The notes under the pieces: generated by a model
The model's input: only the letters and a program-made list of their open reading frames with translations
Database searches by the model: none
Told to the model about the DNA's origin: nothing
Translations under genes and position numbers: made by a program
In this document: positions 2,085-12,276 of the stretch, in pieces
How the letters are laid out: each line of letters opens with the position of its first letter
How positions within the stretch are numbered: position 1 is the first letter of the stretch
Source of the DNA: a virus
Direction: 5' to 3' (one strand)
Virus record (IMG/VR): IMGVR_UViG_3300009425_002189
Coordinates: 1-21,006 of that record
DNA: 21,006 nucleotides

Positions 2085-2103
2085 ATATATATTAATGTAT
2101 CAA
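2085..2103 (+). repeat. Upstream element, copy 1 (before the structured RNA)
   Basis: ATATATATTAATGTATCAA recurs with one mismatch at 2656-2674, upstream of gp32. Both copies are followed within 12-17 bases by TTGACAA (2121 and 2687). Copy 1 also begins a dyad, TGTATCA-ATTA-TGATACA (2096-2113), which copy 2 lacks. A shared phage promoter or activator site is the simplest explanation. Confidence 0.55.
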
Positions 2104-2143
2104 TTATGATACAAAGTTTTTTGACAATTTGGATTTTTAAAAA

Positions 2144-2530
2144 GTACAGGGAGTTATAAACTCTGTATGGAATTGACCGAACAATGGGTATCCTTTAGAA
2201 GCCCATAAGGTAATCCAAGATGAGTTCGTGGTGAACCTACAAGGCCGAATGGTTAAGTAGTTGAGACATCAATCATCTAATGTACTTTCTGAACACATAA
2301 AGAAGCAATTCTTTAGACCTTGTTGTGGGTAAGGGTAAAACTGAAATCCCACTTAATGGCTGAATCAATCTAAACTCAGAGAGATAAGGCAATAACACAG
2401 AGGTTGTACTCACTTCGATAGTCTTAACCAGACAGAGAAGAATCATCATAACTGATGGGTGTTAGGTACAAGGGGCAATAAAATCTGAGCAGAAAGTTGT
2501 AGGTATGCAAATCCTACATTCCTAAAAATT
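2144..2530 (+). ncRNA. Probable structured non-coding RNA, family not recognised
   Basis: This stretch has no plausible protein gene, appears richer in G and C than its flanks, and holds many complementary segments. They are: a 9-bp hairpin 2145-2167; an H-type pseudoknot (ATGGG 2184-2188 with CCCAT 2202-2206, CCTT 2192-2195 with AAGG 2207-2210); GTTC/GAAC (2224-2227/2233-2236); a 6-bp closing stem ACAAGG/CCTTGT (2239-2244/2318-2323); a 7-bp stem capped by a GCAA tetraloop (2298-2315); GTGGG/CCCAC (2325-2329/2348-2352); a long-range stem CTCAGA/TCTGAG (2375-2380/2484-2489); GTCT/AGAC (2421-2424/2430-2433), whose loop can pair with GGTT at 2402-2405; and TGTAGG/CCTACA (2498-2503/2513-2518). 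A terminator-like hairpin follows. The hallmark sequences of tmRNA, RNase P RNA and group I or II introns were not found. The ends are estimated. Confidence 0.65.
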
Positions 2531-2540
2531 TCCAACTTAT

Positions 2541-2613
2541 AAAAAAAAGGTTCTCACCGATTTTTAGTTTCCACTTATGATAGACTTAAAAACAAAATGA
2601 ACCTTTTTTTTTT
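2541..2613 (+). terminator. Terminator-like hairpin after the structured RNA
   Basis: AAAAAAAAGGTTC (2541-2553) pairs with GAACC plus a T run (2599-2611), giving a 13-bp stem and a U tract to 2613. The 45-base loop holds a smaller inner stem (TTTTTA near 2561 against TTAAAAA near 2587). It would separate the RNA unit from gp32. Confidence 0.65.
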
Positions 2614-2655: not shown

Positions 2656-2674
2656 ATATATATTATTGTATCAA
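2656..2674 (+). repeat. Upstream element, copy 2 (before gp32)
   Basis: ATATATATTATTGTATCAA matches the element at 2085-2103 in 18 of 19 positions. It lies 54 bases before the gp32 start, with TTGACAA at 2687-2693 between them. Its placement suggests that it is part of the gp32 promoter. Confidence 0.55.
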
Positions 2675-2728: not shown

Positions 2729-3502
2729 ATGGATTTAAACGCAATAAAAAAACGCCTCGGGCAGTTACAAACAACTAACAATCGGACTTCCAGTCTTTGG
2801 AAACCACAACCAGGTAAAACTCAAATCCGCATCGTACCTTACGCTTTCAATAAAGAGAATCCTTTTATTGAATTATTTTTTCACTACAATCTGAGCAATC
2901 GCTCTTATTTATCACCAATTTCTTTTGGTAGACCAGACCCTATTGAAGAGTTTGCTCAAAAACTAAAAGCAAGTGGTAATAAGGAAGATTATCAGTTATC
3001 ACGTAAACTTGAAGCAAAAATGAGAACTTTTGCTCCAGTTATAGTTCGTGGTGAAGAATCGCAAGGTGTGAAGTTTTGGGGATTTGGAAAGACAGTTTAT
3101 CAAGAACTTCTTTCAGTAATCGCAGACCCTGATTATGGTGATATTACAGACCCAATTAATGGTCGTGATATTTCGGTAGAGTTTATCTCAGCCGAGGAGA
3201 GTGGAGCAAGTTATCCAAAAACTAACATTCGCGTCAAACCTAATCAATCACCGATTTCTGATGAGCCAGATGTACTTGAAAAAGTAAAGAAACAACAGGA
3301 CATTACAGAAATCTATCAAGAGTTATCATACGATGATATGACAGATATATTAAATACATGGTTAAACCCTGATGGTGATGCAACTGAAGAAGATTCAGAA
3401 GTATCAACAACAGCAAAAGCCGTTGAAGGAAATGTAGCTGAACTTGACAAATCTAAGGTAAGTAATACTGGTGATGCTTTTGATGAGTTATTTAACTCGT
3501 AA
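2729..3502 (+). CDS. 32: Single-stranded DNA-binding protein, gp32-like
   Basis: The 257-residue protein has the gp32 layout: a short basic N-terminus (IKKRLGQL, 5-12) of the sort that drives cooperative binding, an OB-fold core (about 22-210) with KPQPGKTQIRIVPY, FHYNL, SPISFGRPDPIEEF and KFWGFGKTVYQELL, and an acidic, low-complexity tail ending DAFDELFNS. It coats single-stranded DNA in replication and recombination and docks partner proteins through the tail. T4 gp32 has 301 residues and a His-Cys3 zinc site; here His52 aligns roughly with the zinc histidine, but the protein contains no cysteine at all, so the zinc site is absent. A GGAG site (2717-2720) supports the start. It leads a replication cluster with uvsX next. 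Confidence 0.88.
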   Translation: MDLNAIKKRLGQLQTTNNRTSSLWKPQPGKTQIRIVPYAFNKENPFIELFFHYNLSNRSYLSPISFGRPDPIEEFAQKLKASGNKEDYQLSRKLEAKMRTFAPVIVRGEESQGVKFWGFGKTVYQELLSVIADPDYGDITDPINGRDISVEFISAEESGASYPKTNIRVKPNQSPISDEPDVLEKVKKQQDITEIYQELSYDDMTDILNTWLNPDGDATEEDSEVSTTAKAVEGNVAELDKSKVSNTGDAFDELFNS

Positions 3503-9537: not shown

Positions 9538-12276
9538 ATGAAGATTAATCGTAAACTAATAATAGTATCACTAATGATGATGACAGGATTGTTCGCACAA
9601 TCTATTGTTGGAGTTGTCAATAGTGGTGAAGAACCATTGATTGGAGCTAATGTAGCTGTCGAAGGAACTGATAAAGGTGGTGTAACAGATAATTCTGGTT
9701 CATACACTATCGATGTTGGAGCCGAAGGCACATTCACATTAACTGCTTCATTCATTGGATACTCATCTACAACACTTGATGTTGTGGTGGGTGATATAGT
9801 TGGAACACTCAACTTCAATTTAGAAGAAGATGTTTTAATTATGTCAGATGTTGAGGTATTGGCTTCAAGAGCTGGCAGAAATACACCTGTTGCTTACACG
9901 ACAGTTAGTAAAGAAGAAATGGAGATACGACTTGGAAGTCAAGATATCCCTATGGCTTTAAATACTACACCAAGTGTTTACGCAACTCAACAAGGTGGTG
10001 GTGCGGGTGATGCTCGTATCAATGTTCGTGGATTTAACCAACGGAATATAGCAGTAATGATAAATGGTGTTCCCCAGAATGATATGGAGAACGGATGGGT
10101 TTATTGGTCTAATTGGGATGGTGTTGGTGATGCCACATCTTCTATTCAGATGCAACGAGGACTATCAGCTGTTAATTTAGCTACACCTTCAATTGGTGGA
10201 ACAATGAACATCATTACAGACCCAGCATCCTTAGAAAAGGGTGGTAAGTTCAAACAAGAATCAGGTGGTGGTGGTTTTCTTAAAACTACTTTGAACTATA
10301 ATTCAGGTTTAATTGGTGATAAATTAGCATTAAGTGGTACGATTGTTCGTAAAACTGGTGATGGTATCATTGACGGAACTTGGACAGATGCTTGGGCTTA
10401 TTATTTTGGTGGTTCTTATGCAGTATCTGATAAACAACGATTTGAGTTGTATGCAATCGGTGCTCCACAAAGACACGGACAGAACCTATACAAACAGAAT
10501 ATCGCTACTTACTCACAAGAGTTAGCTGGTGAAATTGATGGATTCGATACTGATGCATTTGCAGAAGGTAATAAATTCGAAACCGAAGCTGGTAGGTTGT
10601 TCAATCAAAATGTAGCACCAATCGATGCATCATATACAGGTGAACAATACTGGTATATGTATGGAGCGAGAACTACTAAACGATACAATTCCGACTTTCT
10701 TAATGAGAGGGAGAACTTTTTCCATAAACCATTAGTGAATTTAAATCACTTTTTACAAATAAATGACAAGATGAAATTATCATCAGTTGCTTATTGGAGT
10801 GGTGGTTCTGGTGGTGGAACAGGTACGTATGGTAGTGTAATGAGAACACCTGCTGTAGTAGATAATGCTTGGTATTCAAGTTCACCATGGGCTTGGGATT
10901 GGAATGGCGAGATTGAACAGAATCGTACAAATGTAGATGCCGATTATTCGGAATCAGAACATCGTTCTACGGGTATTCTTAGAAACTCAATCAATAGACA
11001 AGATACATATGGATTAATTTCTAAACTAAACTTTAAAGTTAGTGATGATTTAGAGATTCAAACTGGTATCGATTGGAGAACTGCTAGTATAGAACACGCA
11101 CGTGAAGTTCGTGATTTACTTGGTGGAGATTACTACGTTGATTTTGCAGATAAAAATGTACCAGATGGTAAAGTAGTTAAGTTAGGTGATATAATCGCGT
11201 ATCATAACGAAACAACTGTCGACTGGTTAGGTGGATTTTTACAAGGTAACTACACGAGAGATAATCTAAATGTATATGGAATGGGTGGAATATCATCTAT
11301 TGGATATACATATAAAGACCATTTCTCTACAGACAATAGTGTAGTTGTGGCTGATAACATTACTACTTACCAAGTTAAGGGTGGAGTATATTACGATTTT
11401 GGTGAGGGAGTTACTACATATGCTAATACAGGGTATGTTGAAAAAGCCCCAATTCTTGATAATGTAATTGATTATTCTGGTACGGTCGCATCCAACCCAG
11501 ATAATGAGAAATTCTTATCAACAGAAGTTGGTGCTGGATATTCTAACGACAAGGTTGCCGTTAAAGTATCTATATATGCCACAGATTGGAAAGATAGAAA
11601 CCTTACTCGTAATGTTGACACAGGTCAAGGCGATTCGGGAGATACAGATGTAATCTTTCTAAAGGGTGTAAATCAGAAACATCAAGGTACAGAACTTGAA
11701 GTGAAAGTAAAACCACATGATTTGGTTGAACTTGACTTTGTTGCTTCTTTCGGTGGTTGGAAATTCGATGGTGATGCCAGTGGTACTTACCAAGAAACAG
11801 AATACAACGAAGAAGGCCAAGGAATTGGTTATACAACAACGGAATATGCTTACGCACTTGATGGGTTGTATGTTGGTGATATGCCACAGACATCTTATAC
11901 CTTTGCTTTGACTGTTAAACCAGTAAGTGGATTAAGAGTTACGGCATTGTACAAAATGTATGATAAGAACTATTCTGATTGGAGTCCTGCTTCGAGAGAA
12001 ATCGAGGATGGAACAGCTGATAGGACACAAGTTTGGGAAGCCGATGGTTACTCTAAACTTGATTTACACGCATCCTATAAACTTCCAAGTGTCGGTGGTT
12101 TAGATTTGACTTTAACTGGTCACATCTTCAACGCACTTGATGAAGTATATGTTCAAGATGCGGTTGATAACTCACAATACAATGGCTATGGTGATAAACT
12201 TCACTTAGCACAGAACGCCGAGGTATTCTTAGGAACACCACGATATGCTAACATTGGCTTGTCAGTAGCATTTTAA
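9538..12276 (+). CDS. TonB-dependent outer-membrane receptor with carboxypeptidase-regulatory-like domain
   Basis: This 912-residue protein starts with a signal peptide (1 to about 20, ending GLFAQ). A CarboxypepD_reg-like beta domain follows (about 22-97; PLIGANV, GGVTDNSGSYTIDV), then a TonB-box-like DVEVLAS (104-110), the plug (about 117-228; RINVRGFNQRNIAVMINGVP and PSIGGTMNII) and a beta-barrel to the end. The C-terminus, ANIGLSVAF with terminal Phe, is a proper outer-membrane insertion signal. Such receptors import siderophores, cobalamin or glycans using TonB energy; the ligand cannot be told here. The frame is intact and full length. GAGGAG (9525-9530) gives a good start. It is a single-gene unit with its own leader and terminator inside a phage replication cluster, as expected for an acquired accessory gene. 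Domain style suggests a Bacteroidota/Marinimicrobia-like donor. Confidence 0.92.
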   Translation: MKINRKLIIVSLMMMTGLFAQSIVGVVNSGEEPLIGANVAVEGTDKGGVTDNSGSYTIDVGAEGTFTLTASFIGYSSTTLDVVVGDIVGTLNFNLEEDVLIMSDVEVLASRAGRNTPVAYTTVSKEEMEIRLGSQDIPMALNTTPSVYATQQGGGAGDARINVRGFNQRNIAVMINGVPQNDMENGWVYWSNWDGVGDATSSIQMQRGLSAVNLATPSIGGTMNIITDPASLEKGGKFKQESGGGGFLKTTLNYNSGLIGDKLALSGTIVRKTGDGIIDGTWTDAWAYYFGGSYAVSDKQRFELYAIGAPQRHGQNLYKQNIATYSQELAGEIDGFDTDAFAEGNKFETEAGRLFNQNVAPIDASYTGEQYWYMYGARTTKRYNSDFLNERENFFHKPLVNLNHFLQINDKMKLSSVAYWSGGSGGGTGTYGSVMRTPAVVDNAWYSSSPWAWDWNGEIEQNRTNVDADYSESEHRSTGILRNSINRQDTYGLISKLNFKVSDDLEIQTGIDWRTASIEHAREVRDLLGGDYYVDFADKNVPDGKVVKLGDIIAYHNETTVDWLGGFLQGNYTRDNLNVYGMGGISSIGYTYKDHFSTDNSVVVADNITTYQVKGGVYYDFGEGVTTYANTGYVEKAPILDNVIDYSGTVASNPDNEKFLSTEVGAGYSNDKVAVKVSIYATDWKDRNLTRNVDTGQGDSGDTDVIFLKGVNQKHQGTELEVKVKPHDLVELDFVASFGGWKFDGDASGTYQETEYNEEGQGIGYTTTEYAYALDGLYVGDMPQTSYTFALTVKPVSGLRVTALYKMYDKNYSDWSPASREIEDGTADRTQVWEADGYSKLDLHASYKLPSVGGLDLTLTGHIFNALDEVYVQDAVDNSQYNGYGDKLHLAQNAEVFLGTPRYANIGLSVAF

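Follow-up and report, generated by a model that had tools for sequence, protein, structure and literature searches.

Homology and covariation point to a tandem manA RNA with exchanged P5 strands upstream of gp32 in a T4-like marine phage

In the genome of a T4-like marine phage, a stretch of about 380 bases between an HNH homing endonuclease gene and the gene for a gp32-like protein has a G+C content of 39%, against about 20% in both flanks, and raises the question of what kind of RNA it specifies and whether that RNA is a leader of gp32 or a gene in its own right. The DNA analysed, referred to here as the window, is the whole 21,006-nucleotide stretch of IMG/VR record IMGVR_UViG_3300009425_002189. 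The initial annotation of the locus had remarked on the unusual base composition, which is confirmed, and had proposed a large structured non-coding RNA of unrecognised family, either a new class or a divergent member of a known one, with GOLLD as a possibility. We find a compact structured RNA at about 2144-2524 on the + strand with covariation among its homologues, as described below, and without a conserved reading frame in them (median length of the longest + strand open run, 33 codons); insertions and deletions among the homologues are mostly not multiples of three, and the folding of the window RNA is better than that of shuffled sequences (z -2.1). The family is a recognised one, in that an Rfam scan of the whole window returned RF01745 (manA) as its sole family, with the 3' half of the RNA passing the gathering score (62.2 against 55.2 bits), and it is the notion of a divergent member that holds. 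Covariance models of GOLLD and ROOL gave no match to the window, even at E values up to 10, which removes GOLLD as the family. No Rfam model for tmRNA, RNase P RNA or introns reached threshold in the window and ARAGORN found neither tRNA nor tmRNA in it, in agreement with the initial view that the RNA belongs to none of these.

The surrounding genes form a T4-like replication block encoding the gp32-like protein, UvsX/RecA, an exonuclease, a DnaB-like helicase, a B12-type ribonucleotide reductase, a clamp and a clamp loader. Within this block is a 912-residue TonB-dependent receptor-like protein (9538-12276; CarboxypepD_reg and Plug domains), which is uncommon for a phage and could reflect a host that is Bacteroidota-like or related. 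Upstream of the RNA, the HNH_3/NUMOD4 homing-endonuclease-like gene (1316-1741) is matched in just two RNA-bearing loci, one of them the window, and is therefore probably a recent insertion; a pilin-like protein with an N-terminal methylation motif (16-456) has matches in 24 loci, likewise upstream of the RNA.

A nucleotide search of the window RNA against named phages gave chance-level matches only, and homologues were therefore gathered by way of the neighbouring recombinase gene, which provided 80 marine viral loci, and by way of the terminator loop, which provided more. Full-length homologues of the RNA number about 127 in marine viral contigs, 72 of them distinct, with a mean pairwise identity of 69% and a minimum of 45% (reduced set, n=60), and conservation spans the entire 2144-2524 region, beyond the half matched by Rfam. 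The 5' half has no RF01745 match in the window itself, where its score is below the reporting level, and was assigned to manA by alignment to eight related records in which RF01745 matches both halves in tandem at full model length. The 5' halves in these records score 25.9-44.7 bits (E 1.8e-7 to 6e-13), under the gathering score, and the tandem matches overlap by a shared hairpin in all but one of the eight; scores for the 5' and 3' halves are, for example, 39.3 and 53 bits in G009, 44.7 and 54 in G011 and G016, and 39.3 and 66.1 in G018. The parts of the 5' half follow the order of manA, with CYGAAUAA-hairpin-UAAGG, a multi-hairpin junction with a GUGGU loop, and a GGUA...AAUCC terminal hairpin. 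A model built from the 5' halves points in the same direction, although its matches are weak singly: its best non-self match is a cyanophage manA, in register, and in a second set four of its five best matches lie on manA. When only a portion of the 5' half is modelled, single manA is found weakly, at E values of 0.08-0.28. On this evidence the 5' half represents manA a second time, in diverged form, and the window RNA carries two manA domains in tandem in one molecule. The probable origin of the double form is a single manA that was duplicated in tandem, with strand exchange following.

We examined the secondary structure using an alignment of 33 diverse sequences (A1); 94.2% of the cells of a 109-pair structure are paired in it, compared with at most 43.5% in slid controls. 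Cells with two-sided changes number 661, against 198 in shuffles, and 72 of the pairs carry such changes, so that gathering homologues from marine viral contigs and checking them for covariation, as the initial annotation had suggested, gave a positive answer, and a far stronger one than the comparison of the window fold with shuffles. Seventeen column pairs lie above every value of a tree-based null (5.4 million values), and 16 of them are canonical; the test was written for this analysis on the pattern of R-scape, its null is simple, and an exponential tail leaves 10 pairs at E below 0.05. Hairpin A2 was lost to RNAalifold alone because a nested fold cannot hold it together with the pseudoknot; the y helix was overlooked as well, and both were tested via a hand-written structure. 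Helix counts are taken from A1 because a larger, 60-sequence alignment apparently misplaces some of the y columns, which are 73.8% canonical there. The features of the locus are collected in the table.

Features of the RNA locus, with positions in the window and the evidence for each
Feature	Position	Strand	Evidence
Conserved upstream block, candidate promoter region	2086-2143	+	homologue alignment
Parts of upstream block	TATATATTAATGTATC box 2086-2101; GTATC..GATAC inverted repeat; TTGACA 2121-2126	+	
5' hairpin, 8 bp	2144-2168	+	97% of cells paired; 5/8 pairs with two-sided changes
First manA copy, D1	2169-2352	+	RF01745 matches to aligned homologues in 8 records; covariation
Parts of D1	c1 2169-2173; module A 2176-2211; multi-hairpin module B 2218-2278; x 2285-2291; y' 2317-2323; terminal hairpin T1 2325-2352		
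Second manA copy, D2	2324-2524	+	RF01745, 62.2 bits; covariation
Parts of D2	T1 (common with D1) as 5' hairpin; A2 2359-2390; B2 2394-2463; y 2468-2474; x' 2490-2496; T2 2499-2517; closing strand c2' 2518-2522		
Closing helix c, 5 bp, joining the copies	2169-2173/2518-2522	+	covariation-supported
Inter-copy helix x:x' (strand-swapped P5)	2285-2291/2490-2496	+	6/7 pairs with two-sided changes; 90.7% canonical
Inter-copy helix y':y	2317-2323/2468-2474	+	95.6% of cells paired; 4/7 pairs with two-sided changes
Pseudoknot, A2 hairpin loop with 3' strand	2375-2380/2484-2489	+	100% paired; 4/6 pairs with two-sided changes
Putative kissing loop	2403-2407/2448-2452	+	98% canonical; no two-sided changes
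GCAA-capped hairpin C1	2298-2315	+	present in window; 54-83% of cells paired in homologues
Intrinsic-terminator-like hairpin and T-run, separate element	2541-2613	+	fold z -3.2 (2541-2611); conserved loop CGATTTTTAGTTTCCAC
Second box TATATATTATTGTATC, upstream of gp32	2657-2672	+	exact pattern match
gp32-like single-stranded DNA-binding protein, downstream neighbour	2729-3502	+	Pfam gp32 PF08804, 6.6e-13; phrog_1192

Several of the individual elements proposed from the window alone look different in this light. The GCAA-capped stem is present but poorly conserved among the homologues. A long-range 6-bp stem was right in kind, and it is three helices (c, x:x' and y':y) that the alignment supports. 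The H-type pseudoknot placed near the 5' end was not confirmed; the covarying pseudoknot is the one that joins the A2 loop to the 3' strand, in which the pair 2378:2486 individually exceeds the null maximum. The kissing loop, lacking two-sided changes, is weakly supported.

The arrangement of P5 distinguishes this RNA from an ordinary manA. A local P5 hairpin within one domain is canonical in only 26.9% and 35.1% for the two copies and does not hold as a member of the structure, and the Rfam alignment of the 3' half displays the P5 pairs as broken. The P5 strands pair between the copies, not locally, and the RNA is therefore a manA variant rather than a plain member. Helices x and y are, from the alignment, best described as manA P5 with its strands exchanged between copies. 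Because of this swap, and of the single 5-bp helix that closes the whole RNA, the molecule looks like a single-chain dimer, and homology and covariation together support a covalent, pseudo-twofold 'dimer'. Two descriptions fit it: two manA copies fused as a strand-swapped dimer, or a circularly permuted manA inserted in the P5 loop of a second one. The structure of manA has already been revised by CaCoFold and in Rfam 14 (PMC7657543, PMC7779021), and we therefore do not claim as new any structural detail of single manA beyond that in Rfam.

We then considered the flanking signals in relation to gp32. The initial annotation had noted promoter-like regions and a terminator. The upstream block with its TTGACA at 2121 is indeed conserved, but a consensus scan of the + strand of the window found no sigma-70 site. 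Exact copies of the box TATATATTAWTGTATC occur in the window only before the RNA and before gp32, and related boxes with the GTATC..GATAC inverted repeat precede gp32 in many homologous loci; the box is probably a type of phage promoter or operator. The terminator, for its part, is present as a terminator-like hairpin (2541-2611). Its loop, CGATTTTTAGTTTCCAC...ACTTAAAAAC, is long and conserved far beyond the needs of a terminator. In about 12 further loci of marine viruses the hairpin stands behind unrelated genes, without the manA RNA; it is an element of its own, mobile or shared, and we rejected the loop as part of the RNA since it is found without it. No RNA match to the terminator strands was found when own and foreign RNAs were compared, the terminator stem varies, and a mechanism of anti-termination is unsupported by this comparison. 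The RNA adjoins gp32 in 138 of 141 loci of the window's clade, and as to whether it constitutes the 5' UTR of a controlled gene, it lies upstream of gp32 with the terminator and gp32's own box intervening. In relatives with a gp32 65-81% identical no RNA was detected, and often fewer than 100 nt precede gp32. Given the terminator after the RNA, gp32's own box, the lack of an anti-terminator and these RNA-less relatives, the RNA thus appears as a removable cassette.

The contexts of single-copy manA bear on the same question. It was published in 2010 as a cis-regulatory riboswitch candidate (PMC2864571), a label that later cyanophage papers repeat, and no transcript data or function for manA were found in the literature searched. 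Of 72 single manA loci, 65 have a predicted sigma-70 promoter that matches at 11 or more of 12 positions and sets the transcription start at the 5' hairpin of manA, whereas shuffled upstream DNA satisfies the same criterion in 0.3%; this placement holds whatever gene comes downstream, and the other named cyanophages first examined have a TTGACA/TATAAT-type promoter directly upstream of manA. In Synechococcus phage S-CREM1 manA exactly fills the gap between tRNA-Leu and tRNA-Asn, in ACG-2014f it occupies the gap between tRNA-Arg and tRNA-Asn, and a tRNA is directly 3' of manA in five further contigs, one of which shows the order promoter, manA, tRNA-Asn. The genes near manA are functionally unrelated and include tRNA-Asn, tRNA-Gly, gp32, a capsid neighbourhood, transaldolase, PurL and oxygenases. 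The next reading frame is on the same strand in 57 of 58 single manA loci (median distance 80 nt), and a clear terminator or T-run follows in just 23 of the 58. Taken together, these loci argue strongly for autonomous starts but give a mixed picture for autonomous ends.

Two observations from these loci extend beyond manA. Directly 3' of many cyanophage-type copies (L260, L283, L287, L292, L293, L299 and others) is a conserved block, AGACCTAAGATGCAACTC..AGAG..TGGGGCA, which is perhaps another small RNA or a leader. A single tRNA cluster of S-CREM1 (L084, 1246-2144) holds the wcaG, manA and abiF RNAs, so the cis-regulatory label of wcaG may call for a check as well.

We favor the interpretation, with a probability of roughly 0.6, that the T4-like marine phage carries here an autonomous gene for a trans-acting double manA RNA. 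It builds on the homology, the tandem copies, the strand exchange, the non-coding nature and the promoter linkage of single manA demonstrated above. The product would be a transcript of about 380 nt in which two tandem manA domains share the middle hairpin, exchange P5 strands and are closed by one terminal helix; it would be transcribed on its own as a discrete RNA that ends at the intrinsic terminator before gp32. Such a stable folded RNA most likely acts in trans, presumably binding a host or phage factor during infection, and the single-copy manA of cyanophages would act likewise. As manA is placed between tRNA genes in some phages, a partner might be sought first in the translation or tRNA machinery. 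Speaking against autonomy, a start at the first hairpin also fits a leader RNA, nearly all single copies are followed by a same-strand frame, fewer than half have clear terminators, and the double form is almost always beside gp32.

These same points lend themselves to a cis-regulatory reading, in which the RNA is a tandem riboswitch in the gp32 5' leader whose two manA domains bind ligand cooperatively and control the terminator. That proposal would agree with the published candidacy of manA and with a terminator placed behind the RNA, but we think it improbable: the neighbours of manA have no common function, the terminator exists without the RNA and its stem varies without a matching anti-terminator, gp32 carries its own upstream box, and relatives with a gp32 of 65-81% identity show no RNA. 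A role of the RNA at its locus in DNA replication, for instance as an origin or primer transcript beside gp32 and uvsX, is very unlikely; the RNA does head the replication gene block in the window's clade, yet cyanophage manA is located at unrelated sites, and a primer needs no elaborate covarying fold.

An RNA scaffold in which single manA is a strand-swapped homodimer, and the window RNA its single-chain version, is a tentative suggestion, possible rather than probable; it is a sharper form of the autonomous-gene interpretation and compatible with it. The swapped x:x' and y':y helices are strongly supported and their local alternatives are not, the same helix in single manA can be drawn as a local hairpin, and OLE, ROOL and GOLLD are precedents for homo-oligomeric natural RNAs (PMC12286853); on the other hand, the helix can form inside one single-manA molecule. 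The further proposition, that manA is a phage trans-acting RNA working as a dimer by P5 swap, two copies of which became permanently fused in the window's clade, is one that we consider doubtful.

In the literature searched we found neither the double, strand-swapped form nor a systematic case against manA being a simple leader. The family has been listed among cis-regulatory riboswitch candidates since 2010, and its promoter, tRNA and terminator contexts make the view of manA as an autonomous RNA testable. The double form is a natural experiment in which the exchange of strands between copies fixes part of the three-dimensional arrangement, and this exchange raises the possibility that manA acts as a dimer. 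The double form also shows that manA, a family familiar chiefly from cyanophages and marine metagenomes, is common in doubled form in another marine phage group.

Among known systems, GOLLD and ROOL are likewise large ornate phage RNAs, and as with some manA copies, they are often near tRNAs and are homo-oligomeric in their own case (PMC12286853). The window RNA differs from them in being smaller, in having no covariance match and in showing no sign of a cage, and the likeness, drawn by analogy, is one of life style only. The rnaC and rnaD RNAs of T4 (species 1 and 2) are comparable in being small and stable and in lying within the tRNA cluster of this T4-like phage, beside tRNA-Arg; kinship of either with manA is not supported, T4 having no RF01745 match at E values up to 1. 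Tandem riboswitches of the glycine type also have two homologous aptamer-like domains in tandem, but in the window RNA the domains exchange helix strands, and no expression platform was found. The closest comparison is with manA (RF01745) itself, whose covariance model matches both halves (the 5' half in relatives of the window) and whose order of 5' hairpin, closing helix, CYGAAUAA-hairpin-UAAGG module, multi-hairpin module and GGUA..AAUCC terminal hairpin is retained. In contrast to single manA, the window RNA consists of two copies with a common hairpin, exchanged P5 strands and one closing helix for both, and it is positioned upstream of gp32, in another marine phage group, with its own terminator.
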